Shown piece by piece: positions 1-11,827 of a stretch of 44,296 nucleotides of DNA. Source of the stretch: Parabacteroides acidifaciens (lineage in GTDB: Bacteria; Bacteroidota; Bacteroidia; Bacteroidales; Tannerellaceae); the NCBI RefSeq assembly GCF_003363715.1, contig NZ_QREV01000043.1, positions 1 through 44,296 of the forward strand, written 5' to 3'. A program made the position numbers and the translations under genes. The notes below the pieces were generated by a model that was not told where the DNA came from, did not search any database, and was given only the letters and a program-made list of their open reading frames with translations. Position 1 is the first letter of the stretch. Each line of letters opens with the position of its first letter.

Positions 1-108
1 CTCAAAAAAGGCGAAAAAGTCCCTTTTTGAGGTCAAAAAAGCGGATTAACATTTGTTTTGTTTCGGATGTCTTTTGAGGCTGAAAAATGCGTTTTATACA
101 ATAAGCCT
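1..108 (-). repeat. Composite repeat, copy 1 (part A only, cut by window start)
   Basis: The first ~108 bases are a near-identical inverted copy of 11857-11966. Shared blocks include GCGGATTAACATTTGTTT and CGTTTTATACAATAAG. The element runs off the left edge of the window. Relative to the copy at 11.9 kb it is inverted, so the two copies face each other across about 11.8 kb. No coding function is visible. Confidence 0.85.
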
Positions 109-150
109 CCCCTGTTTGGATAGTTTTATATTATATCGAGGCTTTTTGAT

Positions 151-158
151 TATATTTG
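151..158 (+). promoter_or_regulatory. Bacteroidetes -7 element (TATATTTG)
   Basis: TATATTTG matches the Bacteroidetes TAnnTTTG -7 consensus and sits about 40 bases before the chosen start of the aldo/keto reductase. No TTTG lies at the expected -33 spacing. This site supports starting the gene at 200 and not at the upstream ATG at 53, which precedes the promoter. Confidence 0.5.
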
Positions 159-199
159 TATCTCCTTATAATAGATTCATTGTAACAATATATCATATT

Positions 200-1192
200 A
201 TGGAAATGTATAAAGCAAAAGAAAGCCGGTATGCCGATATGGTTTACAGGCGTTGTGGAAAGAGTGGATTACTGTTGCCCGCCGTTTCTTTGGGATTGTG
301 GCATAACTTTGGCAGTGTGGACGTGTTCAGCAATTTTATACAGATTGCACATGCTGCTTTCGACAATGGAATCACGCACTTTGATCTTGCCAATAACTAC
401 GGCCCTGCTTACGGATCGGCGGAAGAGAACTTCGGCCGTATATTAAAGAAAGGTTTAGGACACTACCGCGACGAGCTTATCATTTCCACAAAAGCCGGAT
501 ATGATATGTGGCCCGGCCCGTACGGGAACTGGGGAAGCCGTAAGTATTTGATGGCGAGCCTGGACCAGAGCCTGAAACGGATGGGGCTGGATTATGTGGA
601 CATCTTCTATTCGCACCGCCCGGACCCTCAGACGCCTGTCGAGGAAACGATGGGTGCACTTGTGGATATCGTGCGCCAGGGAAAAGCGCTCTACGTAGGT
701 ATCTCGAATTATAATGCCGAGCAAACGGAAAAGGCGCTTGCCGTATTGAAGGAACACCGGGTGCCCTGCCTGATTCACCAATCACGTTATTCCATGTTGG
801 ACCGTTGGACGGAGCCCGACCTGCTGCCTCTGCTGAAACAGGAGGGAGTCGGGATGATCGCTTTCTCTCCGCTGGCACAAGGAATGTTGACGGACAAATA
901 CCTGAACGGTATTCCTGAAAACTCCAGAGCTGCTAAATCCACGGGACATTTGCAACGGGAACAGGTGACGGACGAGGTGGTTGCCAAAATCCGTCAACTG
1001 AACGAACTTGCCGGAAAACGTGGTCAGACGTTGGCCGAGATGGCACTTGCCTGGTTGCTGAAGGATGAGCGGGTGACAAGCGTCCTGATCGGCGCCAGCT
1101 CCGTAGCCCAGTTGATGGACAACCTGAAAGCATTGGGGAATATCACTTTCTCAGAAGAAGAATTGCAAACGATAGAAAATATATTAGCTTAA
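200..1192 (+). CDS. yghZ: Aldo/keto reductase, YghZ (L-glyceraldehyde 3-phosphate reductase) type
   Basis: Cytoplasmic NADPH-dependent aldo/keto reductase of the Kv-beta-like branch. In E. coli YghZ/Gpr this enzyme reduces L-glyceraldehyde 3-phosphate and detoxifies small aldehydes. The match to the E. coli protein is strong along the whole length: an N-terminal CGKSG followed by SLGLWHNFG, the catalytic-region block THFDLANNYGP with its Asp and Tyr, STKAGYDMWPGPYG, LIHQSRYSMLDRW, and SVLIGAS near the C-terminal cofactor site. With the start at 200 the protein has 330 residues, normal for the family; an in-frame ATG at 206 is an alternative. The open frame back to 53 adds a hydrophobic stretch that lies upstream of the promoter and is not believed. 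The AddB-like gene follows after 11 bases, so the two may be cotranscribed. Confidence 0.9.
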   Translation: MEMYKAKESRYADMVYRRCGKSGLLLPAVSLGLWHNFGSVDVFSNFIQIAHAAFDNGITHFDLANNYGPAYGSAEENFGRILKKGLGHYRDELIISTKAGYDMWPGPYGNWGSRKYLMASLDQSLKRMGLDYVDIFYSHRPDPQTPVEETMGALVDIVRQGKALYVGISNYNAEQTEKALAVLKEHRVPCLIHQSRYSMLDRWTEPDLLPLLKQEGVGMIAFSPLAQGMLTDKYLNGIPENSRAAKSTGHLQREQVTDEVVAKIRQLNELAGKRGQTLAEMALAWLLKDERVTSVLIGASSVAQLMDNLKALGNITFSEEELQTIENILA

Positions 1193-1203
1193 TACTCAGC
1201 TTA

Positions 1204-4131
1204 ATGAAACCATTCTTATACCAGGTCGCCTCCCTGTTTTACTCTCAATACGGGGCGGAGATCAGCCGGTTGGCCTTTGTTTTCCCGAACCGCCGTACAG
1301 GACTTTTCTTCCAGAAATACCTGTCGGAGGTAGCCGGGAAGCCGCTTTTCTCACCGACTATCCTGACGATTAACGACCTTTTCGTGCAACTTAGCGGCAA
1401 GCAGACTGCCGACCGGATCAGTATGCTGTTCAAATTGTATGGCATTTATCTGGAGCACAGCGGTTCGTCCGAAACGTTCGACGAATTCCTTTATTGGGGC
1501 GAAATGTTGTTGAACGACTTCGATGACATCGACAAATATATGGCGGATGCCCGTATGCTGTTCACGAACGTGACGGACCTGCGCGAGATTGAGAATGATT
1601 TCAGTTTTTTGAGTCCGGAACAGATTGCTGCTATCCGGACGTTCTGGTCGTCCTTCTATCCGAAGGGAGATACCCCGAATCAGGAAGAGTTCCTGGCTGT
1701 CTGGCAAATCCTGTATGCTCTGTATGCAGACCTGCGGGAAGCATTGTCTGCTGAAAATAAAGGCTATGAGGGGATGATTTTCCGGGAAGTGGTCGAGCGG
1801 ATGGAGAAGGAGGAATGTTGTGACCTGCCTTATACAAAGATTGTATTTGTCGGTCTGAACGCCCTGTCTGTGGCTGAAGAACGTTTCCTCTCCCTGCTGC
1901 AAAAACAGGGTATCGCAGATTTCTATTGGGATTATGCCTCTCCGAAGGTGACTGATCCGGATAATAAGGCTTCCTATTTTGTGGAACGCAATTTAAAGCA
2001 ATTCCCCTCGCAATTGACAATTGACAATGAAGAGAGCGACGACAAATTGTCAATTGTCAATTCTCCATTGTCAATTGAAGTGATCGGTATCCCTTCCGGT
2101 ATCGGGCAGGCCAAACAGGTGTATAGCATCCTGAGCGATCTTTGCAAGGAGGATGAGATGAGTGCCGAAGAGGCCTTGAAGACTGCTGTAATCCTGCCGG
2201 ATGAACACCTTTTGATCCCGGTCTTGAATGCAATCCCTGAACAGATCAAGCGGATTAATGTGACGATGGGATATCCGTTGGCAGGTACGCCGGTGGCTTC
2301 CCTGATGGAATATATTCTGGCTTTGCAAAAGAATGTGCGTTATGTGGACAGACAACCGGTGTTTTATTTCCGGGATGTTTTGCCGATCCTGAACCACCGT
2401 TACATAATGACGACTTCCCCGGATGTTATTTCCAGGCTTGTGAAAGATATTTCAGAGAATAACAAGATATACATTTCGTATGCGGATTTGAATAAAACCG
2501 CTTTGCTATCCATCCTTTTTACTCCGGTAACGGCTGTAGATATGTTCTCTGATTACCTGATTAATGTTTTGCAGGAGTTGAACAAAGCGATTGACAATGG
2601 ACAATTGACAATTGACAATGAAGAGAGCGACGACAAATTGTCCATTGTCAATTGTCCATTGTCAATTAAAGACGTGGAGCAAGAGTTTATCTTCCACTAC
2701 TTTACGACAGTCAACCGAATGAAGGAAGTCATGCAGGAGGCCAACGTCGAAATGAAGATCGACACCTATTTCCGTCTGCTGAAACGGGTGACGGATACGA
2801 TTACGATTCCTTTCCACGGTGAACCTCTTTCAGGATTGCAGATCATGGGTGTGTTGGAAACGCGTGCGCTTGACTTCGACCGCCTGATCATCCTTTCCAT
2901 GAATGAAGGAATCTTCCCGTTGAAGAAAGCGGCCAATTCGTTTATTCCTTACAACCTGCGCCGCGGTTTCGGTCTGCCGACCTATGAGCATCAGGACAGT
3001 GTCTGGGCCTACCATTTCTATCGTCTTATCTACCGTGCCAGCCATGTCAGCCTGCTCTATGACACGCGGAGCAACGGATTACAGACAGGAGAGGTGAGCC
3101 GTTTTGTCCACCAGTTGCATTATCATTACGAGGAACCGATACAAAATAAGTTAGTTGTCTATAATGTCTCTTCCTCCAAGACCCCGGCCCTGCAGGTCGC
3201 CAAGACGGAAGAGGTCATGAACCGCCTGGCCGTCTTCCGTAAAGACGGGCCGCGTGCGATTTCAGCCAGTGCGATCAATACGTATCTGGATTGTCCGTTG
3301 AAATTCTATTTCTCGGTTGTCGAAGGCATCCAGGAAGAAGAAGAGGTGAGCGAGACGATCGAAAGCAATGTCTTCGGGAGTATCCTGCATAAAGTGATGG
3401 AGGAATTGTACAAGCCTTTCTGCGGAAAGATGGTAACAGCCGATTTGCTGAAAGCGATCCGGAAAGATACGCCTGCCCTGACGGGTGCCGTTGCCCGCGC
3501 CTTCGCCGAAGTGTTCTTCAAGACAGATGTTGTCCGTCCGCTTACCGGACAGAATTTCCTGATTGGCGAGATGATTCGCAAGTATGTGGAGAAGGTACTG
3601 GAGCGTGACGGTAAACTGACGCCTTTCCGGTATATCGAATCGGAAAAGAGGATTAACAGACTGTTCACGCTTACGGATAAGAGCGAGATACAACTCAAAG
3701 GCTTTATCGACCGTATAGACGAGGTGCGTGATGCCGTCCGTATCATCGATTATAAAAGTGGGAGCGGCACACCTCAGTTTACATCTGTCGACGCCCTTTT
3801 CGATAAAGAAGAAACGGACCGCTCCAAAGCTGTCATGCAGGTCTTTATGTATGCCTGGATGTACGGCATGGCTCCTGCCGGAAAGGTGATACAGCCAGGC
3901 ATATATTATATGCGGACGCTCTTTTCTCCATCCTTCGATGCCGGCGTCTACCAACGCATCGACCGGAGCAAGACGGAGCTGGTTGTTGATTTCGCCAATT
4001 ACTATACGGACTTCGAGAATGGCCTCCGGAAGTGCCTGGATGAGATATTCGGAACAGAAACACCGTTCGTGCAGACACCTAACGGAAAGGCATGTACGTA
4101 TTGCCCGTTTAAAGATATTTGCGGGAAATAA
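1204..4131 (+). CDS. AddB-like PD-(D/E)XK nuclease/inactive-helicase subunit with two palindromic inserts
   Basis: Probable AddB/RecB-family subunit of an AddAB-type double-strand-break repair nuclease (975 residues). The C-terminal nuclease domain has the motif around DYKSG near residue 847. The four cysteines expected for the iron-sulfur staple are present: one in YLDCPLKFYF (about 698) and three in the C-terminal CTYCPFKDIC. The N-terminal part has helicase-like folds such as FVFPNRRTGLFFQKYL. Within this large N-terminal half are two inserts, residues about 270-292 and 463-489, that translate to nearly the same peptide (core TIDNEESDDKLSIVN). They come from palindromic DNA elements in frame. 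No AddA-type helicase gene is adjacent in the window, which is unusual for a two-subunit system. It converges with the esterase gene, leaving 7 bases. The AddB role is inferred from motifs. Confidence 0.82.
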   Translation: MKPFLYQVASLFYSQYGAEISRLAFVFPNRRTGLFFQKYLSEVAGKPLFSPTILTINDLFVQLSGKQTADRISMLFKLYGIYLEHSGSSETFDEFLYWGEMLLNDFDDIDKYMADARMLFTNVTDLREIENDFSFLSPEQIAAIRTFWSSFYPKGDTPNQEEFLAVWQILYALYADLREALSAENKGYEGMIFREVVERMEKEECCDLPYTKIVFVGLNALSVAEERFLSLLQKQGIADFYWDYASPKVTDPDNKASYFVERNLKQFPSQLTIDNEESDDKLSIVNSPLSIEVIGIPSGIGQAKQVYSILSDLCKEDEMSAEEALKTAVILPDEHLLIPVLNAIPEQIKRINVTMGYPLAGTPVASLMEYILALQKNVRYVDRQPVFYFRDVLPILNHRYIMTTSPDVISRLVKDISENNKIYISYADLNKTALLSILFTPVTAVDMFSDYLINVLQELNKAIDNGQLTIDNEESDDKLSIVNCPLSIKDVEQEFIFHYFTTVNRMKEVMQEANVEMKIDTYFRLLKRVTDTITIPFHGEPLSGLQIMGVLETRALDFDRLIILSMNEGIFPLKKAANSFIPYNLRRGFGLPTYEHQDSVWAYHFYRLIYRASHVSLLYDTRSNGLQTGEVSRFVHQLHYHYEEPIQNKLVVYNVSSSKTPALQVAKTEEVMNRLAVFRKDGPRAISASAINTYLDCPLKFYFSVVEGIQEEEEVSETIESNVFGSILHKVMEELYKPFCGKMVTADLLKAIRKDTPALTGAVARAFAEVFFKTDVVRPLTGQNFLIGEMIRKYVEKVLERDGKLTPFRYIESEKRINRLFTLTDKSEIQLKGFIDRIDEVRDAVRIIDYKSGSGTPQFTSVDALFDKEETDRSKAVMQVFMYAWMYGMAPAGKVIQPGIYYMRTLFSPSFDAGVYQRIDRSKTELVVDFANYYTDFENGLRKCLDEIFGTETPFVQTPNGKACTYCPFKDICGK
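2011..2077. repeat. Intragenic palindromic element, copy 1
   Basis: The left arm 2011-2028 (CAATTGACAATTGACAAT) pairs with 2046-2063 at 17 of 18 positions around a 17-base loop, GAAGAGAGCGACGACAA. A further CCATTGTCAATTG follows on the right side. It lies in frame inside the AddB-like gene. The loop is identical to that of the second copy 0.57 kb downstream. Confidence 0.9.
2590..2666. repeat. Intragenic palindromic element, copy 2
   Basis: The arms 2590-2619 and 2637-2666 are 30 bases each and complementary with a single mismatch. They enclose the same 17-base loop as copy 1. Each arm is built from repeated ATTGACAATG/CAATTG words. Like copy 1 it is read through in frame, giving residues about 463-488 of the AddB-like protein. 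Confidence 0.92.
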
Positions 4132-4138
4132 GACCAGG

Positions 4139-4999
4139 TTAGCTTCTGCTGAATGTCTGGCTGACAAACTTCAGGACTTCCGGCAGAGCTGTCCGCCAGT
4201 ACGTCCAGGAGTGCCCGCCGCCGTGTACGCGAAATTCGTGTTTGATGTTCTTCTGCCGCATGATCTGGTGAACTTGGAAATTTCCTTCCAGCAACCCGTC
4301 TTTGTCACCGCAATCGATATAGTAACGGATGTTGGGCAGTTTGTTTTCGTCCCAGTCGGAAAGTATCTTTTCGACGCTGTTCTTATGCCAATGTTCGTCG
4401 CCCGGCCCGAACAGGCGGTTGAATAGATCCTTGTGTGATTTGGCTTTCCGCGTATCCATGACCGAATCATCGAAGACTGCGGCGCTTAGCGGGGCGCATG
4501 CGCAAAACATATCCGGATGGTGCAGGCTGTAGAGGAATGATCCGTATCCGCCCATCGACAGGCCGGCAATGGCACGGCTTTCCTGGTTGCTGCGAACGCG
4601 ATAGGTCTTTTCCATATAAGGGATCAGTTCTTCAAAAAACATATCTTCGTAAGGAACCTTTCCGTCATACTGGTTCACATACCAGGTGTCCCATGCGTCC
4701 GGCATGACGATGATCATTGGGACTGCCTCTTCATTGGCTATTGCACGGTCGGTAATCGTTTTCATCTGACCCATATGTATCCAGTTTGTTTCATTGTCTG
4801 TGTAGCCATGCAGAAGGTAAAGGACCGGATAATTCCTCTTTGAGGTGTTGTAGTCGGAAGGCAGGTAAATGGAGTAAGAAACTTTCCTTCCTAATTTCTG
4901 ACTGTCGAATGAGAGCGATTCGAATACGGCACTTTGTGAATATCCTGCAAGATTGACTAACAAGCACAGGATAAGAGATAAGCATACTTTGTTTTTCAT
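4139..4999 (-). CDS. Secreted alpha/beta-hydrolase esterase (CE1/esterase D-like)
   Basis: Predicted exported serine esterase of 286 residues. A signal peptide spans about residues 1-22 (ends GYSQ). The nucleophile elbow is GLSMGGYG with Ser148, preceded by the HGYTDNETNW oxyanion-hole region. Candidate acid Asp232 or Asp234 lies in CGDKDGLL, and His263 in GGGHSW completes the triad. The layout matches esterase D/feruloyl-esterase-like family 1 carbohydrate esterases. Likely substrates are acyl or aryl esters on polysaccharides or small acyl esters; the sequence does not say which. The gene converges on the AddB-like gene. Downstream terminator space is almost absent, so the two transcripts probably overlap. 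Confidence 0.85.
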   Translation of the reverse strand: MKNKVCLSLILCLLVNLAGYSQSAVFESLSFDSQKLGRKVSYSIYLPSDYNTSKRNYPVLYLLHGYTDNETNWIHMGQMKTITDRAIANEEAVPMIIVMPDAWDTWYVNQYDGKVPYEDMFFEELIPYMEKTYRVRSNQESRAIAGLSMGGYGSFLYSLHHPDMFCACAPLSAAVFDDSVMDTRKAKSHKDLFNRLFGPGDEHWHKNSVEKILSDWDENKLPNIRYYIDCGDKDGLLEGNFQVHQIMRQKNIKHEFRVHGGGHSWTYWRTALPEVLKFVSQTFSRS

Positions 5000-5035
5000 A
5001 TAATATTGATAATTAGATTTGCCAGTTGTTCACGT

Positions 5036-5195
5036 AGAGGGGGTGCCAAAAGTCCCATTTATAGCGTCTGTGTCCTGGCGGGCTTGATCCGCCATCTTAT
5101 CCTAATCATTGTAAATCAATTTAGTATGAGATTGCGGGGCAAGCCCGCAATGACATGCTAAAGCGTTAGAACTTACATTTGACGCACCCTCACGG
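5036..5195. repeat. REP-like inverted doublet in an intergenic space
   Basis: The space between the esterase and the PanE-like gene holds two short GC-rich hairpins in opposite orientation: GGCGG/CCGCC at 5077-5093 and ATTGCGGG/CCCGCAAT at 5131-5151. They share the word CGGGCTTG on opposite strands. Outer flanks GAGGGGGTGC (5036) and GCACCCTC near 5187 form a loose inverted pair. This resembles the paired palindromes of REP/BIME elements. It lies downstream of the PanE-like gene and upstream of the esterase. Confidence 0.6.
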
Positions 5196-5202
5196 ATTAA
5201 AA

Positions 5203-6141
5203 TTAATCGACAGGATAAGGGAACTGTGTCAGTCCTTTATACATGAACTGGTAAGTCGGCACTTCAACCCCCAATTCTTCAGCGGTCCGGACAACATAGC
5301 CCGTCAGTGTCTCCACCTCCGTACGGCTACCCCGTTTGAAATCACTATGCATGGAAGTGGTGGAATTGTTCGGCATGATCTTCTGTGCTTCAATAGAAGA
5401 AAACACAGGATTATCTTTAAACCGGATGCCTTTTGCCTCTGCCACGCTTTTCAGTTCATAGCTTAATGTAATATACAGGTCGATATGACGGTCGAGCACT
5501 TCACTTATCGTTTCATTAAAATAAGATGTGGCGGTTGCGGCTGTCGAAATCATAAAGAACTTTTTCCATATCTCCAGATCGATGTCGTCCGGCACAGTTG
5601 TCAGGATACGGGCGTTTGCCAATATCTCCTGCAATTCCTTCAACCGTGTTTTGTCTTTTTTGTTGTTACCTAAAAAGACACGGTCTTTGATTGTGAATTT
5701 CTCGATTCTTCCCGGTCTGACTAAGCGGGAACCTATATACACGCATCCTTTCCAGACTTCGTTGTCCGGTAATAATTTCTGTATGCGCTCTGTTATGTCC
5801 GCCCCGTTCAGGAGAGGGATGATAACCGTATCAGGTCCGATTATCGGAGCCAGTTGGGCTATATTCTCGTCCAGGTCGTAACTCTTGGTACAACAGAACA
5901 GATAATCGACCGGACCGCCTATCTCGGCTGGCTTGTCAGTCGCAAGGGTAGGCTTGGCTTTGATCGTCAGGAATGTATTTTTGACTTCGATGCCGTTTTC
6001 CCGGATTGCTTTCAGGTTTTCACCTCGGGAAATGAAATAAACATCTACATTGTCTGAATCTTTGTAACGGGCGGCCAATAATCCTCCGTAGTAACCGCCT
6101 ACGGCTCCTATGCCGGAAATTGCTATTTTAGTTTTACTCAT
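5203..6141 (-). CDS. 2-dehydropantoate 2-reductase family protein (PanE/ApbA-like)
   Basis: NAD(P)H-dependent reductase of the ketopantoate reductase family (312 residues, normal length). The Rossmann motif ISGIGAVGGYYGG starts at residue 8. The family blocks CCTKSYD (substrate Lys region), PLLNGAD, and KKFFMISTAATATSY (second catalytic Lys region) are present, followed by a helical C-terminal domain with PTYQFMYKGL. If it is true PanE it makes pantoate for coenzyme A, but many paralogs act on other 2-keto acids and the sequence alone does not separate them. It follows the pyridoxamine kinase gene by 46 bases on the same strand, so they may form a two-gene operon. A near-consensus CATCTTTG just upstream could give it its own promoter. 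Confidence 0.82.
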   Translation of the reverse strand: MSKTKIAISGIGAVGGYYGGLLAARYKDSDNVDVYFISRGENLKAIRENGIEVKNTFLTIKAKPTLATDKPAEIGGPVDYLFCCTKSYDLDENIAQLAPIIGPDTVIIPLLNGADITERIQKLLPDNEVWKGCVYIGSRLVRPGRIEKFTIKDRVFLGNNKKDKTRLKELQEILANARILTTVPDDIDLEIWKKFFMISTAATATSYFNETISEVLDRHIDLYITLSYELKSVAEAKGIRFKDNPVFSSIEAQKIMPNNSTTSMHSDFKRGSRTEVETLTGYVVRTAEELGVEVPTYQFMYKGLTQFPYPVD

Positions 6142-6187
6142 GTTTTATACTATTATTCTGCAAAGATGAAAAATAAAATTGGAATAA

Positions 6188-7069
6188 CTATATCAGTTTG
6201 AGTTCTTTTAGAAAGTCAGGGATACATTGTTCAAAATTAACACCGAAACGATAATCCGTTTTCGCTTTATAGGTCCGCCGTATGCTGTCTGCCGTGAAGT
6301 TTACGGCTATCTGTGCCGATTCGTTTAAGCTGAAATTGTTCAGTAACCCGGATAGCAGGGCGCTCGCGAAAATATCGCCTGTCCCATGATATGCCCCCGG
6401 TATCCTTTGGGTGAACAGGAAGCCGACTGCATCTTCTTTTCTGTCGTAGGTCGCGGCTCCTAACTCTTCTTCTTTGAAATAGACACCTGTCAGTACGACT
6501 TTTTCCGGTCCGAGCTTGCTTAATTTCTTTAAGATATTTTCGATATAGGCCTGGGTGTAAGGGCCAGAATGGTAACTTTCTTCCAGCAATAAGGCGGCTT
6601 CAGTCAGGTTGGGGACGATGATGTCGGCTTTCTTGCACAGCGAACGCATACCTGCGGCAAACTCCGGTTGGAATATGCGGTATAGTTCGCCGTTGTCAGC
6701 CATGACCGGGTCTACCAGGATCAGATTGTCTTTGGACTTGAACAGGGTGAAGAACTCTTTGACAAGCTCCAGTTGGTCGAATGATCCTAAAAAGCCGCTG
6801 TATGTGGCATCGAATCTGATGTTCAAGGATTTCCAGTGCTGCATAAATGCCCGCATATCGCTTGTCAGGTCACGATAGGTATATCCGTTGATACCGCCCG
6901 TATGGGTGGATAAGATGGCTGTCGGCATGGCGCATGCTTCTATACCGGCTGCTGAAAGAATGGGTAAAGCGACTGTCAGCGAGCATTTCCCGAAACCGGA
7001 CAGGTCATGGATGGCTGCTATACGTTTTTGATGTTCTTTATTTTTCATATCTGATACTGATTTATCCAT
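6188..7069 (-). CDS. Pyridoxamine/pyridoxal kinase (PdxY/PdxK type)
   Basis: ATP-dependent B6-vitamer kinase of the ribokinase superfamily, part of pyridoxal 5'-phosphate salvage in the cytoplasm. The N-terminal block AAIHDLSGFGKCSLTVALP and the segment MPTAILSTHTGG match the substrate pocket region of PdxY-type kinases. DPVMADNGELY is the ATP/Mg region, and GTGDIFASALLSG holds the catalytic Asp232. The length of 293 residues is normal. An alternative start at Met8 (7048) would remove a short unconserved lead; neither start has a clear Shine-Dalgarno. It is divergent from msrA. Confidence 0.87.
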   Translation of the reverse strand: MDKSVSDMKNKEHQKRIAAIHDLSGFGKCSLTVALPILSAAGIEACAMPTAILSTHTGGINGYTYRDLTSDMRAFMQHWKSLNIRFDATYSGFLGSFDQLELVKEFFTLFKSKDNLILVDPVMADNGELYRIFQPEFAAGMRSLCKKADIIVPNLTEAALLLEESYHSGPYTQAYIENILKKLSKLGPEKVVLTGVYFKEEELGAATYDRKEDAVGFLFTQRIPGAYHGTGDIFASALLSGLLNNFSLNESAQIAVNFTADSIRRTYKAKTDYRFGVNFEQCIPDFLKELKLI

Positions 7070-7145
7070 ATAACAGCCAATCGGGGAGAATCGTTCTCTG
7101 GTGGCAGGGGAAATGCCTGACTGTATGTCGAATAGTTATTTTTAT

Positions 7146-7153
7146 TACTTTTG
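7146..7153 (+). promoter_or_regulatory. Bacteroidetes -7 element (TACTTTTG) for msrA
   Basis: TACTTTTG fits TAnnTTTG and lies 48 bases before the msrA start. No clear -33 element is visible. Confidence 0.5.
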
Positions 7154-7201
7154 TGGCAGGCTTATGATTACTAATATGACTCATTAATAATAAAAGAGAA
7201 T

Positions 7202-7720
7202 ATGGAAAGAAAAGAAAATGCTGAAATATATCTGGCTGGCGGATGCTTCTGGGGAACGGAACATTTCCTGAAACAGATCAGAGGTGTGGAGAGTACGGAA
7301 GTTGGCTATGCGAACAGCCATGTTGCAAATCCGACCTATAAGGAAGTCTGTACCGGAAATACCGGGGCAGCCGAGACCGTTAAAGTTGTTTATAACCCGC
7401 AAATTGTAAAATTGCAGTTGCTGCTGGAGCTTTATTTCCAGACCATCGATCCGACCAGTGTCAACCGGCAGGGTGGTGACAGTGGCTTGCAATATCGTAC
7501 AGGCATTTATTATACGGATAAAGAATATCTCCCGGTTATTGAAGCAGCCATACATGAATTGGCAAAAGCATATGCCGATCCGATTGCGATTGAAATAGAA
7601 CCGCTCGTTAATTTCTATGCGGCGGAAGATTACCACCAGGATTATTTAGATAAGAACGTAAACGGCTATTGCCATATCAACCCGAAACTGTTCGAGTTGG
7701 CACGCAAAGCGAATATGTAG
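7202..7720 (+). CDS. msrA: Peptide-methionine (S)-S-oxide reductase MsrA
   Basis: Repairs the S-epimer of methionine sulfoxide in proteins. The catalytic motif GGCFWGTE places the nucleophile at Cys15. The conserved blocks VGYANSHVANPTY, ETVKVVYNP, YRTGIYY and YHQDYLDKN follow. A C-terminal Cys in GYCHINP is the likely resolving residue. At 172 residues it is a stand-alone MsrA without an MsrB fusion, and with no signal peptide, so it should act in the cytoplasm. It is transcribed from the promoter at 7146 and ends at a large hairpin shared with the convergent GH31 gene. Confidence 0.95.
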   Translation: MERKENAEIYLAGGCFWGTEHFLKQIRGVESTEVGYANSHVANPTYKEVCTGNTGAAETVKVVYNPQIVKLQLLLELYFQTIDPTSVNRQGGDSGLQYRTGIYYTDKEYLPVIEAAIHELAKAYADPIAIEIEPLVNFYAAEDYHQDYLDKNVNGYCHINPKLFELARKANM

Positions 7721-7734
7721 TTCGTATTTTAGGG

Positions 7735-7821
7735 GACGCAGACTACGCAGACGAGCGCAGAATAACGCAGAAATATAATTTAAATCTGCGTTAATCTGCG
7801 CTCGTCTGTGTTATCTGCGTC
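7735..7821. terminator. Large intergenic hairpin between convergent genes
   Basis: Arms 7735-7770 and 7786-7821 are 36 bases each, complementary with about five mismatches, around a 15-base AT-rich loop. Each arm is itself built from repeats of a CTGCG/CGCAG word about 10-13 bases apart. It lies between the stop codons of msrA (+) and the GH31 gene (-). It could act as a bidirectional terminator, though it lacks a U-tract; a dispersed palindromic repeat is the alternative. Confidence 0.6.
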
Positions 7822-7828
7822 CGGTAAA

Positions 7829-10800
7829 TCAGAACTTCTGCATATTCAGGTTCTTGTCCACCAGGATACCGTCGATCGCTTTCAGGTTGAATTTAACCTT
7901 GCGTTTCGCTTTCAGCTTGATGGTGAAGAGATCCGTTGAGCCTTCAAGCGTCGCCTTGTCGCCCAGATTGACGAAAGTAGGATAGAGCGCTTTCTGGCCG
8001 CTTGTGTGCAGGCGGTCGTACGTCAGGTTCTCCATTGCACCCAGACCGGCAGGTTCGATACCTGCGAAGTCATAGTCTTGCTGATCGTACGGAAGGGCGA
8101 AGCTCAGTGCATTGACAGCTTTGAGATCCTTACCTTTCACGAGGATTTCTATTGTCTCGCCTGCGTTGTAAGTCTGCTTCGGAGTGCTCAACTCGATTGT
8201 TCCGGCTACGCGATCCGTGCCCGGATCTTCAATGCCGTCTTCCAATTGGGTGGCAACAACCGAGATGTCATATGCATCGATCAGTCCGTTGCGGTTGATG
8301 TCGCCGGCGCTGACGTAGTCGAAATCGCTGTCGCCACGGCGCAGCCCCGTGTAGTTCATATACGAAGTCAGGTCGTTTGCATCGATCTTCTTATCGTTGT
8401 TGATGTCGCCCGGCAGATAGCTTTCAGTTCCCGGAACCTTAAATACATACAGTTCGCGGCCGGCACCGTAGTTGCCAACGCCTTCCGTGATGTGCAGCTT
8501 GATGTAACGGGCCTTCGGCTGTTCCTTGAATGTGAATGTCTTCACGTCGCCGGTGCGTTCCCAGCGGAAGGAGTCGACAGCTGTCCAGTCTTCTTTGTCC
8601 ATACTGTAGGACACAGAGCCGGCGAGGATCGTACCGTTGCCACCATCCTGGCGAGGCAGGTAGTCGAACTTATCCAACTGGTTGATCGTGCGCAGGTCGA
8701 TAATCATGTCGAACGGCATTGCGTTCTTGCGGTATTTCGTATGGAACATATCGCCCAACTCAGCAAAGTCGAACAGACGGAAGATTTCGAAGCCTTCCTG
8801 TTCTTCGGCTGTTACTTCGCCGCGAATGCCCTTGATCGCAAATTCCAGCGGGTTGGACTTAGTCTTGACAGAGACGGTAGACCAGTCGGACTGGCCATCT
8901 TTGTTGACTGCACGGACTTTGAATGTATAATCTGTTTCGGCACTCAGATCGTCGAACAGCAGTTCGGTGTTCTTGATCTGCGTGTACAGCATACCGTTGA
9001 ACTCGATTTCGTAGAAGTCGGCGCCGGAGACCTTGTTCCAAGTCGGTTTCAGCGTGTAGGCTTCGATGTTTTCATCCGCCACCTGTACTGTCGGTGCAGT
9101 CAGTGAACCGGTAGAAATGCGGTGGCTGTCGCCCATTTCGAACTTGTAACCGTCGATGTTGACAATGGTTTCGTTTTCGGTGATGTCCGTAGCGGCCAGC
9201 TTCACTAACAGCTGCGGGTTCTTGGTGATCGTAACCTTTTCAAATTCGCTTCCTTTGGTGGCGAACTTGTTCAGGTTTGGAGTTGCGTCGTAGAAGTAAA
9301 CGTCTGTGCCGTTCAGGTATTCGGCCATCGAACGGGCTGCGGTCAGTTTCACTTTGGAAGAACCTACTTTAGCTGTGATCTTCTTCGGCATTTCCGAAAG
9401 GTTGATGCGTAGTTCGGTTGCCTTTTCCTTCACGAAGCCGTCGAAGTTCCCTTTTGCCGGGTGTATCGTGATGGTAACTTTATCCGGATTATTTTTACCG
9501 TTTGAATCGATGATGGTCTTATTACCGATCACTACTTTCACTGCCGGATCATTGTTGTTACCGATCTCTATTAGTGTCGTAACACCTTCACCTTTCTGGT
9601 AAGCTTGTGTAATACCATCGTCGTCATATTCCGTGAACGAGCTGTAGCCCGACGGATAGAGTTCGTAGATACGCAGGTTCTTGTCGATTTCCTTTACATT
9701 ATTATTCGGGTTCGTCATCGGGATGATCGCACCGGCTTTCACGAATACCGGAAGTTTCCAAAGCGGAGAGGCGAAGTTGTTGACAACGCAGCCGCCTGTA
9801 TATTGTTCACCGGTGAAATAGTCGAACCATTCACCTTTCGGCAGATAGATACCGTCGCGGATGTCGTTACCTTTCTCGTCTGCCTGTGTTTCCTGGTAGA
9901 TCGGGGCAACGAGGAAATACGGGCCATACATAAATTGGTATTGCGTAGCCTTACCGTATGTATAAGGATTCGGATCTTCGAGGAACATGGCGCGGATCAT
10001 CGGCTTGCCGTCTACCGCTTCGCGGGCGATACTGTAGGCATACGGCATCAGTTCTGATTTCATCTTCAGATACCAGCGGTTGATGGAAGTTGCCGGTTCG
10101 CCTAAGGCATGCGGGTATTTCTCATTCGATCCCCAGCCGTCCATATTCAGTTCCATCGGCGTCCAGGTCTTCCACTGGAAGTCGCGGGTGTTCATTGCCA
10201 GGTTCTTGCCTCCGAAGATACCGTCCATGTCGGACGTGATGTTCGGCTGTCCGGAAAGTCCGGAACCGATATAAGTCGGGATGTGGAAACGGATGTATTC
10301 CCATTGTCCGCCTGTCTGGTCACCCGACCAGACACCGGCATAACGCTGTGTACCGGCCCAACCGTCGAGGGAGATGATAAACGGACGCGCATCGTTTCCG
10401 TAATACGGCATGATATGTCCGACGTCGGACACACCGTTCAATCCGAACGAGTAGCCCCAGCCAACCCAAGCCACGTCTGTTTTCAGGACGCGTACACCTG
10501 CGTCGCGCACCTCTTTCACGATGTCGCGTTGCAGCAGGGCGCTGATACTGTCTTTCGGATGCAGGTCCGATTGAGTCCAGAGACCGATTTCGACACCGTT
10601 CTGATGTGCGTAATCTGTCAGGCTCTTCAGGTTCTGGATATTGCCGTCCAGCGTTTCGGTCTGTCCATAGCCGGCTCCGTAGCCGTCGTTAGGCAGCAGC
10701 CAGCCGAGCGGCATATCATGATTCTTATAGCGGTCGATCACGGCACGTGCGGAGAACTGGTAGTTGTTCTTTTCGCCGTTCAGCGATTCTTTGATACCGC

Positions 10801-11755
10801 CGTTGTCTTTCTGGCTTTCCTTGTAGCGTTTGCCGTCTTCAAAAAGGATACCCTTTTCGTCTTCCACCCAGTAGTCGCGGTTGTAGGCATTCAGGTGTCC
10901 CTGGTAGAAACCGAACTTAGGCAACAGCACCGGGTTACCGGTCAGCTGGTAGAAGTCGTTCAGCAGGGCGACAGCGCCGTCGTTAACCATATAAAAGGCA
11001 TCCAGATAGTCCGTGTCGTGTGACAGTTTCACCGTACCTTTCTCGGCTGCGCCGAAATCATATTTCCCTTGTTTGAAGGTGTACCACATGAAGCCGTAAC
11101 CGTTCGTTGACCAGTAATAGGGAGTAGGAGAGGCCACGCCTCCGTCTGTCCAACTGTTCTGGTTTTCGATGGCGATTGCTTTTCCCTTATGTGAGAAGCG
11201 TCCGTTTTGCACGCCGCCACCGTAGAAGTATTCGTCGGGATTTTCTTTCAATGTCAGGATTGTCTTTCCTTTTTCGTAAGCCACCGGTTTCACCTCTTCG
11301 AAGGCCACTGTGTTTGTGGCAAGGTTGGTGACTTTCAGCAGGGCGGTCGATTTGTCCAGTTGCAACCGGACTTTTCCGGTCGTGATGGTTACTTGTCCGT
11401 TCTCGTCCTTGATATCCAGTGCTGACACCGGTCGGCGGGGATTGTTGACCAGGATTTGTGCTTCCGGTTTGGCTTCCGGATCGCGGATAATGCCGCCATT
11501 GTTGTCCTGGAACACGCGGAAGATGTTATCTCCGTAGAAGTCGAATGTCATTCGCTGGTTGTTGGAGAAGATTACGTCGACCGTTGTCGGGTTGATTCGC
11601 TGCACGCCGGTTATTGCTTGTCCCTGTTGGGTGATAGCCATCCCGTTTCCCGGGGTAACCATTGCCATTACTGGCGCAGAGGACAGCATGAACGGCACAG
11701 CTAAAGCGATCAGGATCGCCTTTTTCTGTTTACGATTAGCCATTAAGCGTTTCAT
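7829..11755 (-). CDS. Secreted GH31 glycoside hydrolase with FN3, F5/8-C, dockerin and cohesin-like modules
   Basis: Large exported glycosidase of 1308 residues. The start at 11755 (MKRLMANRK) gives a signal peptide ending near AMA; the open frame upstream crosses the promoter. Modules in order: N-terminal GH31 beta domain (about 30-270), catalytic barrel (about 275-590) with nucleophile candidate Asp427 in KTDVAWVG and acid/base candidate Asp479 in WSGDQTGG, C-terminal beta domains including a DUF5110-like region (about 700-790), a fibronectin type III domain (about 886-966), an F5/8 type C carbohydrate-binding domain (about 976-1108), a dockerin with two calcium loops (DINNDKKIDANDL and DINRNGLIDAYDI), and a cohesin-like beta domain (about 1182-1308). 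The SFGLNGVSDVG stretch and the module order recall GH31 alpha-N-acetylgalactosaminidases acting on mucin-type glycans; this is inference, and alpha-glucosidase or xylosidase activity remains possible. Confidence 0.88.
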   Translation of the reverse strand: MKRLMANRKQKKAILIALAVPFMLSSAPVMAMVTPGNGMAITQQGQAITGVQRINPTTVDVIFSNNQRMTFDFYGDNIFRVFQDNNGGIIRDPEAKPEAQILVNNPRRPVSALDIKDENGQVTITTGKVRLQLDKSTALLKVTNLATNTVAFEEVKPVAYEKGKTILTLKENPDEYFYGGGVQNGRFSHKGKAIAIENQNSWTDGGVASPTPYYWSTNGYGFMWYTFKQGKYDFGAAEKGTVKLSHDTDYLDAFYMVNDGAVALLNDFYQLTGNPVLLPKFGFYQGHLNAYNRDYWVEDEKGILFEDGKRYKESQKDNGGIKESLNGEKNNYQFSARAVIDRYKNHDMPLGWLLPNDGYGAGYGQTETLDGNIQNLKSLTDYAHQNGVEIGLWTQSDLHPKDSISALLQRDIVKEVRDAGVRVLKTDVAWVGWGYSFGLNGVSDVGHIMPYYGNDARPFIISLDGWAGTQRYAGVWSGDQTGGQWEYIRFHIPTYIGSGLSGQPNITSDMDGIFGGKNLAMNTRDFQWKTWTPMELNMDGWGSNEKYPHALGEPATSINRWYLKMKSELMPYAYSIAREAVDGKPMIRAMFLEDPNPYTYGKATQYQFMYGPYFLVAPIYQETQADEKGNDIRDGIYLPKGEWFDYFTGEQYTGGCVVNNFASPLWKLPVFVKAGAIIPMTNPNNNVKEIDKNLRIYELYPSGYSSFTEYDDDGITQAYQKGEGVTTLIEIGNNNDPAVKVVIGNKTIIDSNGKNNPDKVTITIHPAKGNFDGFVKEKATELRINLSEMPKKITAKVGSSKVKLTAARSMAEYLNGTDVYFYDATPNLNKFATKGSEFEKVTITKNPQLLVKLAATDITENETIVNIDGYKFEMGDSHRISTGSLTAPTVQVADENIEAYTLKPTWNKVSGADFYEIEFNGMLYTQIKNTELLFDDLSAETDYTFKVRAVNKDGQSDWSTVSVKTKSNPLEFAIKGIRGEVTAEEQEGFEIFRLFDFAELGDMFHTKYRKNAMPFDMIIDLRTINQLDKFDYLPRQDGGNGTILAGSVSYSMDKEDWTAVDSFRWERTGDVKTFTFKEQPKARYIKLHITEGVGNYGAGRELYVFKVPGTESYLPGDINNDKKIDANDLTSYMNYTGLRRGDSDFDYVSAGDINRNGLIDAYDISVVATQLEDGIEDPGTDRVAGTIELSTPKQTYNAGETIEILVKGKDLKAVNALSFALPYDQQDYDFAGIEPAGLGAMENLTYDRLHTSGQKALYPTFVNLGDKATLEGSTDLFTIKLKAKRKVKFNLKAIDGILVDKNLNMQKF

Positions 11756-11796
11756 GTTTAAATTAATTGATTTATTCAGGTTTTTATATCTGAAGA

Positions 11797-11827
11797 CAAA
11801 AGTACGTAAAAATAATTTTACTTTCAA
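11797..11827 (-). promoter_or_regulatory. Promoter for the GH31 gene (TTG-N20-TACTTTTG)
   Basis: On the minus strand TACTTTTG (11797-11804) matches TAnnTTTG, and TTG (11825-11827) lies 20 bases upstream, as in Bacteroidetes promoters. The start codon at 11755 is 41 bases downstream. Confidence 0.6.

Follow-up and report, generated by a model that had tools for sequence, protein, structure and literature searches.

Two in-frame palindromes in an AddB-like gene of Parabacteroides acidifaciens belong to a dispersed family of heptamer arrays and are probably copies of a short palindromic element

Introduction

How does the gene of a core enzyme come to carry two long palindromes in an open reading frame? 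The question is raised by an AddB-like nuclease gene of Parabacteroides acidifaciens on contig NZ_QREV01000043.1 (GCF_003363715.1; genome G000 below), of which a stretch of 44,296 nt, referred to as the window, was analysed. Two segments of this gene consist of inverted arrays of a 7-nt repeat, ATTGACA, on either side of a short loop. Such arrays recur at other sites of the genome, between genes and within them, and related species often carry arrays of a different heptamer at the same places. We consider it probable that the AddB segments are copies of a short non-coding palindrome, selfish or neutral, that is dispersed in Parabacteroides and relatives. With these elements protein-coding palindromes are extended to a further phylum, the Bacteroidota, and to enzymes central to the metabolism or upkeep of gut bacteria, namely AddB, MetH, CarB, TrpF, MurC, CysN and Gnd. 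They also join two separate literatures, one on palindromic elements such as repetitive extragenic palindromes (REPs) and Rickettsia palindromic elements (RPEs), the other on heptamer repeats.

Two palindromes in the AddB reading frame

The open reading frame (ORF) that holds both elements matched Pfam PDDEXK_1 (E 1.9e-39) and, weakly and under the family cut-off, NCBIfam addB_alphas (E 1.9e-22). A sequence search of solved structures with the AddB alignment gave 0 matches at E 0.01. A fold search with the AlphaFold model (mean predicted local distance difference test score, pLDDT, 85.4) gave AddB of B. subtilis AddAB as the best solved structure (4cej_B, E 4.5e-26, TM score 0.64 by query length). 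The gene and the parts of the two elements are as follows.

1204-4131, + strand: AddB-like nuclease subunit, 975 aa, host of both elements (Pfam PDDEXK_1, NCBIfam addB_alphas, fold match)
2011-2077, in the AddB ORF: element 1, whole palindrome
2011-2028, no strand assigned: element 1 left arm, about two heptads, ATTGACA ATTGACA AT (repeat search)
2029-2045, + strand: element 1 loop, 17 nt, coding for an EESDD(K) turn
2046-2077, no strand assigned: element 1 right arm, four inverted heptads, TGTCAAT TGTCAAT TCTCCAT TGTCAAT
2588-2668, in the AddB ORF: element 2, whole palindrome
2590-2619, no strand assigned: element 2 left arm, four heptads, ATTGACA ATGGACA ATTGACA ATTGACA AT
2620-2636, + strand: element 2 loop, 17 nt, the same as the element 1 loop
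2637-2666, no strand assigned: element 2 right arm, four inverted heptads

An initial annotation, made from the letters of this DNA, had described two hairpin-forming segments with an identical 17-base loop. The repeat search bore this out, the loop GAAGAGAGCGACGACAA being found at both 2029-2045 and 2620-2636. Element 2 also has the 30-base arms with one mismatch that had been ascribed to it; they are 97% complementary and 17 nt apart. Element 1 is the weaker hairpin. With about four heptads in its right array but some two in its left, it pairs perfectly over 17 bp only (2012-2028 with 2046-2062). RNA folding gave -42.1 kcal/mol (z -9.8) for element 2 and -21.9 kcal/mol (z -4.0) for element 1, and an Rfam search of window positions 1-8000 gave no match. 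The words of which the arms were said to be made had to be redefined: the arms are tandem heptamers, ATTGACA or ATGGACA, with the reverse complements on the right. When ATTGACAATKGACAAT was searched in the window with up to 2 mismatches, 13 matches were obtained against 0.07 expected, all of them in the two AddB segments. The elements also form a direct repeat of 70 nt with 96% identity (2011-2080 and 2602-2671, starts 591 apart), and from this identity one element was probably derived from the other.

Both segments are free of stops, as had been noted, and lie at residues of about 270-292 and 462-489 as calculated from the coordinates. They encode similar peptides, each a LTIDNGQLTIDN-like stretch, a polar turn and an LSIVNCPLSI-like stretch. 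In the AlphaFold model pLDDT falls below 50 at residues 277-285 and 471-484, which are the two element segments and account for two of the three such stretches in the protein. Segment 1 is placed between a helix (260-266) and a strand (290-296), and segment 2 between two helices (445-464 and 488-513). The structural check that the initial annotation had proposed thus returned low-confidence loops at both positions. The low pLDDT fits a loose loop, yet a poorly aligned insert gives the same result.

A family of arrays behind and within genes

The exact 16-mer ATTGACAATKGACAAT occurs 59 times in the genome of the window, and its reversed control 0 times. Clustering of the fetched stretches gave 29 element sites, including the two in AddB. 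The further genomic copies that had been expected are therefore present: there are 27 more sites, five of them in frame inside other core genes. By simple ORF calls (the flanking ORFs at L082 1986, L083 and L101 may be spurious), 15 of the 29 sites lie in codirectional gaps, 5 in convergent gaps, 0 in divergent gaps and 7 within genes, and 2 were left unjudged. At 19 of the 20 measurable sites the element begins no more than 21 nt from the 3' end of the upstream gene, and at five of these (L081, L084, L085, L099 and L102) element and gene overlap by one base, the first A of the element completing the TAA stop. Inspection by eye also found TAnnTTTG, which we take to be the Bacteroides promoter motif, in the loop or just behind the array at L099 4748-4868 and in the flanks of L098, L104 and L105; by this reading some elements would have a stop codon on one side and the next promoter on the other.

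The intragenic hosts in this genome are AddB (twice), MetH, CarB, TrpF, MurC and CysN, with one-armed elements in MurC and CysN. We compared the genome with its four nearest relatives (G002, G013, G014 and G021), with one genome per species. The frame is open through the MetH, CarB, TrpF, MurC and CysN slots in all five species; the CysN segment, which has the same length in all five, could be partly native. In G014, elements of a second type, built from GTTGAAA, lie in the open frames of Gnd and an RbbA-like ABC transporter. The peptides are alike across the coding copies and consist of LTIDNGQLTIDN, a polar turn and LSIVNCPLSI. A heptamer array passes through all three frames in three units, and one unit in three would give TGA. 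In element 2 of AddB the G of the second left-arm heptad avoids such an in-frame TGA, and among sense-strand coding heptads the G variant was found in 19 of 19 stop-phase units (necessarily, the frame being open), in 15 of 56 units in other coding phases and in 47 of 345 intergenic units.

Over the 29 slots in five species, array length has its mode at 32 nt, and 86 of 165 arrays measure 31-33 nt, equivalent to four heptads and about 4 bases. Twenty stretches from three other genomes (G009, G007 and G044) were picked for their likeness to the arrays, and inform on arm length, not on frequency; in these, 38 of 46 arms were 31-34 nt long, solitary arrays being left out. The loop between 28-nt cores has a median of 27 nt, is at most 35 nt long in 55 of 85 elements and reaches 128 nt in the longest. 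All arm pairs seen converge, the reverse order being found in 0 of the 29 clusters of the window's genome. At one locus of G009 (L393, contig C23) a right arm and a 13-nt spacer are repeated in tandem in four copies.

It is the heptamer arms that are shared, and the 17-base loop did not hold up as a common part of the family, since loops differ at most other loci; in palindrome-type pairs the loop differs at nearly every locus. A degenerate form of the 17-base loop, tried as a family signature with up to 2 mismatches, gave 49 matches in G000 against 36 for the reversed control and was rejected as mostly chance. With 0 mismatches it was found in the two AddB copies and at L268, which is outside any array.

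A looser pattern, RTKGAMARTKGAMART, was present in 32 of the 38 genomes of the genus, and the number of matches per genome ranged from 0 to 368; its reversed control also matches (up to 80 times in G014 and 41 times in G000), partly by fitting the GTTGAAA array. Of the 118 genomes available for the family to which the window belongs, 31 contained a longer ATTGACA 23-mer and 0 its control. ATKGACAATKGACAAT occurred at least once in 40 of 395 genomes of the phylum, and outside the window's genome never more than 10 times. Among 23 viral-contig stretches that hold the repeat there were 13 convergent pairs and 0 divergent ones. Convergent ATTGACA pairs were also seen on five viral contigs of 56-58% G+C (L331, L335, L337, L342 and L350), and every one of these contigs has one or more four-heptad arms; from this base composition the heptad design may reach beyond Parabacteroides. 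A plasmid search gave two cyanobacterial records, AP025634.1 (Annamia dubia) and NZ_CP026696.1 (Nostoc), with 76-80% identity over about 75 nt, and the Annamia dubia match to the AddB element, at 1512-1588, starts at the junction of two annotated ORFs. A phage search gave one unannotated faecal record.

Distribution of arrays in AddB, MetH and CarB

AddB was matched in 38 of 41 genomes, and the best 30, including that of the window, were aligned. Arrays were present in five of these, namely in the genome of the window and in the four closest to it, at 88-90% protein identity. All five carry arrays at both positions, some of them one-armed, and in all five the frame is open. The other 25 proteins have short, variable, mostly acidic linkers at these places (by eye; a script tested nine of the 30 for arrays). 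Thus the ortholog alignment that the initial annotation had called for found distant relatives without the two segments. A codon tree of AddB made without the insert columns branches first to G000, then to G002, then to G021 and last to G013 with G014. At site 1 AddB is 24 nt longer than the outgroup (L056) though the element spans 63 nt, and native sequence therefore seems to have been largely replaced. Of the idea that the AddB segments are extra surface loops, the lineage-specific occurrence and the low-confidence loops of the model stand; the segments seem to have taken the place of a native linker and not just to have been added to it.

The distribution differs from gene to gene. MetH has an array in G000 and G002, a decayed array in G021 and a native linker in G013 and G014. 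CarB was matched in 38 of 38 genomes, of which 30 loci were read and eight were left unread; one of those read, G046, gave no pattern match. Six of the remaining 29 have arrays (G000, G001, G002, G013, G021 and G049), 21 have the native linker, and G018 and G051 have a longer, unrelated linker. The ATTGACA element in CarB of G001 (L355) resembles that of G002, while AddB of G001 (L062) is without elements. This suggests either that CarB was exchanged between species or that the array was gained independently.

Turnover of heptamers at shared slots

To compare slots between species we searched the relatives with 27 joined gene flanks, which gave 26, 26, 24 and 24 matches in G013, G014, G021 and G002, respectively. 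The heptamer from which an array is built, here called its dialect, was assigned with a tolerance of two differences from the unit. For sites 17, 18 and 25 no ortholog pair could be used, and these were counted with G000 only, so that 26 of the 29 slots were compared between species. The slots had been picked for ATTGACA arrays in G000, and the share of occupied slots in sister species is therefore biased upward. Of 127 slot states in the five species, 61 were two-armed (including site 21 of G000, scored on a weak right array), 46 were one-armed and 20 were without an array.

More than one dialect was found among the five species in 12 of the 29 slots. GTTGAAA arrays occupy sites 2, 5, 8, 9, 15, 20 and 22 and both AddB sites, and TTATGAT arrays occupy sites 13, 22, 24 and 26. 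The latter are found only between genes, where the stops of TTATGAT do no harm. A fourth unit, GTTGACA, one step from both main dialects, was seen by eye in CarB of G049. The two arms of an element were never of different dialects: mixed arms were found in 0 of the 61 two-armed elements, and in 0 of 85 in a second collection that overlaps the first and includes a few overlapping duplicates.

The loop was recognisable across a dialect switch in 4 of 27 same-site pairs, and was not in the other 23, in some of which it is very short. At site 5 the loop score was 40.5 between G014 and G000, in inverted orientation, and 30 between G002 and G014; at site 9 it was 26 twice. Pairs from different sites scored 22 at the 99% line and 32 at the maximum, so that site 9 lies under that maximum. 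The loop at site 5 (L084; orthologs L187, L191 and L193) is inverted in G014, and by eye in G013, relative to G000 and by eye G021. It looks as if inverted arms had recombined.

AddB arms of the two dialects are in register (by eye). A loop motif, GACGCGAAGC, is found under GTTGAAA arms and under the GTTGACA arms of CarB in G049, with a similar one under ATTGACA arms (by eye). As sites 5 and 9 keep their loop under different arms, arms are in register, mixed elements are lacking and GACGCGAAGC recurs, it is conceivable, though we would not favour it, that the arms are written: an enzyme would flank a loop with four heptads on either side, all of one dialect, and could rewrite occupied slots in another dialect, keeping the loop, the boundaries and the frame. 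If so, heptad-writing systems would form a general class, with the four-unit convergent arrays of Xanthomonas described below, built on another heptamer, as the second example.

Loops shared between loci

In G014 five loci have variants of one loop motif, AATAGCGACGCGAAGC, that differ by small changes: the two AddB elements, a gap between genes (site 22), L301 and L305. The listed pairs among these five loci score 27-32, whereas 8000 shuffled comparisons, set against 2787 real pairs, reached 27 at most. Some other G014 pairs, including the top-scoring one, were not counted, as they reflect leftover heptads in a mis-set loop of L301. Five of seven loci in G007 have a common loop, with p<0.003 for 8 of their 10 pairs, and in G009 two elements 1.8 kb apart, both in open frames, have a common loop by eye. 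Copying between loci is indicated by these loops common to unlinked loci, together with the identical loops of the two elements within AddB.

Comparison with known repeats

Palindromes that insert in frame into genes, the RPEs, were reportedly described by Ogata in 2000, and the initial annotation had likened the AddB elements to them. RPEs are 105-146 bp long with 12-bp paired ends (PMC2229807). Like them, the present palindromes occur both in gaps and in frame in conserved protein genes, where they are apparently tolerated; 7 of 29 sites are in open frames of unrelated genes. Here, by contrast, the arms are four tandem heptamers in several dialects, about 32 nt long, around loops of median 27 nt that are mostly unrelated. 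The hosts are Bacteroidota, with 31 of 118 family genomes and, by the looser pattern, 32 of 38 genus genomes, and not Rickettsia and its relatives. An RPE identity was dropped, since the length, the single family sequence and the host range of RPEs do not apply here.

REPs, of the GTAG and CGTC superfamilies, are likewise short palindromes that form inverted dimers near the 3' ends of genes, in unidirectional and convergent gaps, with some copies within genes. The location of the present elements agrees with this (15 codirectional, 5 convergent and 0 divergent of 29). Many intragenic REPs, which are known from other phyla, are in repair genes including recBCD, sometimes twice in one ORF, and REPs inside recB of Xanthomonas are on record (PMC3733652), so that an AddB gene with two palindromes is not unprecedented. 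The elements described here differ in their heptad arms, in being without the GTAG/CGTC tag and in showing no link to the REP-associated tyrosine transposase (RAYT). REP membership was rejected on the last two grounds, GTAG being found within 8 nt outside an arm in 0 of 85 elements and CGTC on one side in 2 of 85.

In structure the arrays resemble the heptamer repeats of Xanthomonas and Nostoc. The GGGAATC repeats of Xanthomonas and the GGGGA(T/C)T repeats of Nostoc mostly have four units, and one genome with 186 repeats has 70 cases in which two lie close together and converge; these repeats are G-rich, form quadruplexes in vitro and are reported to be 89-93% intergenic (PMC4692102). Shared with the present arrays are the 7-nt unit, about four copies, convergent pairs, a position near the 3' end of the upstream gene and variation in length and sequence at shared places. 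Our arrays differ in being A+T-rich (ATTGACA, GTTGAAA and TTATGAT are without a G-run), in having in-frame copies in core enzymes and in switching dialects. By analogy, then, the design is that of the Xanthomonas heptamer repeats except for G-richness, and the behaviour resembles that of RPEs and intragenic REPs.

TAACTGA repeats, of Beggiatoaceae, Cyanobacteria and five Bacteroidetes, are also dispersed heptamer arrays with some copies within ORFs, mainly at protein ends; they are direct, with one inverted case in the main genome, whereas ours are convergent, and they lie mostly upstream of start codons (PMC4679880). The in-frame tandem repeats of Borgs evolve fast and make disordered protein segments, as here, but are direct repeats that give perfect amino-acid repeats, on extrachromosomal archaeal elements (PMC9879509). 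BrickBuilt, a miniature inverted-repeat transposable element (MITE) of Porphyromonas gingivalis, is another small dispersed repeat-bearing element of Bacteroidales; it differs in being always intergenic, far longer and with a minisatellite inside, and its description does not mention a heptamer (PMC4596501). In the passages compared, papers on MITEs of Bacteroidota describe other elements. In the literature covered, from which most subscription journals were missing, we found no description of this element in Bacteroidota, of slots with several dialects or of in-frame heptamer palindromes in core enzymes.

Origin of the elements

The reading that we think probable can be outlined as follows. 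An element has two inverted arms of about 32 nt, each with four 7-nt repeats, around a loop, and would be copied from place to place by a putative spreading machinery. Copies would survive where they are harmless, in short intergenic gaps directly after a stop codon or in linkers on the surface of a protein. Within a gene they would persist if the change in length keeps the frame and if ATGGACA, the T-to-G variant, stands wherever a heptad would otherwise put TGA in frame; translation of the palindrome would then give a LTIDNGQLTIDN-like and an LSIVNCPLSI-like stretch around a polar turn. As the linkers are predicted loose loops, the host proteins presumably retain their function. Slots would often stay occupied as species diverge while their content turns over to another dialect, with arms always matching. 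The comparison of sister species agrees in that slots are often kept while content is exchanged.

Several observations weigh against copying of this kind. Most loops are unrelated between loci, which whole-unit copying would not leave, and of 190 loop pairs in the G009, G007 and G044 set only the 8 from G007 passed. No target-site duplication was established at the slots compared; one clean empty site (site 10 in G021) is compatible with a 2-bp AT overlap, though palindromic ends make this ambiguous. In MetH and CarB the native linker was replaced and not merely interrupted. Of the 127 slot states, 46 are one-armed and 20 are without an array. The hairpin is not visibly maintained after insertion, because arms within an element are no more complementary than swapped arms (4.58 against 4.46 mismatches per 28 bp at 30 ATTGACA sites, and 4.38 against 4.03 at 18 GTTGAAA sites), and selection or continuous correction of arm pairing was rejected on the same ground. 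Finally, no mobilising enzyme was found among the genomes examined, the Y1 transposase family PF01797 having been followed across 38.

Could the arrays have arisen in place? Each array would then have grown locally by polymerase slippage from a seed heptad, as would a nearby inverted seed, with no mobility; slippage has been discussed as a cause of comparable arrays in Xanthomonas and Nostoc (PMC4692102). It would account for arm lengths that scatter around a mode, for the unrelated loops of most loci and for the single heptads, remnants or seeds, at site 1 in G002 and site 10 in G013. It is harder to reconcile with four-heptad arms that are uniform across species of 63-90% AddB identity, with convergent orientation only, with the absence of mixed elements, with the few heptamers used genus-wide and with loops common to unlinked loci, and we regard it as unlikely. 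Selection for a regulatory hairpin behind genes, as a terminator, a protector of mRNA 3' ends or the site of a heptad-reading protein, would explain the position just behind stop codons, the absence from divergent gaps, the strong hairpins of both window copies and slots that are kept while sequence turns over. The seven sites inside genes, the arms that pair no better within than between elements, the many one-armed and empty slots and the lack of an Rfam match in window positions 1-8000 speak against it, and such a function is quite improbable as the explanation.

Spread by a RAYT transposase, as for REPs or bacterial interspersed mosaic elements (BIMEs), is suggested by the short palindromic units, inverted dimers, positions near gene ends and intragenic copies, all of them features described for REPs, whose hosts include recBCD genes (PMC3733652), and PF01797 is present in the window's genome (one match), in G021 and in G044. 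The tags are lacking, as described above, and PF01797 occurs in 8 of 38 genomes; of the five genomes richest in arrays, four gave no match to it (G002, G007, G009 and G014, of which G007 is 81% complete). This explanation is very improbable, and a RAYT or Y1 transposase was rejected as the mobiliser since its presence does not follow array number. That the segments are an ordinary fast-evolving acidic linker of AddB, with the repeat a coincidence of codon usage, accords with the acidic linkers of variable length that outgroups have at both places. The same DNA is found between genes and in unrelated proteins, with 59 matches in the genome and none for the control, and this reading hardly merits belief. 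We therefore retain a dispersed palindrome as the probable source of the AddB segments, and infer copying as the cause. With four 7-nt units per arm, distinct dialects and no mixed elements, the family offers a concrete, searchable system: a comparison of Parabacteroides genomes that have many arrays with those that have none could be used to look for the spreading machinery.

Other features of the window

Elsewhere in the window, a long ORF on the - strand (7829-11827) resembles a glycoside hydrolase by eye, with dockerin-like repeats near its end (GDINNDKKIDANDL and GDINRNGLIDAYDI).

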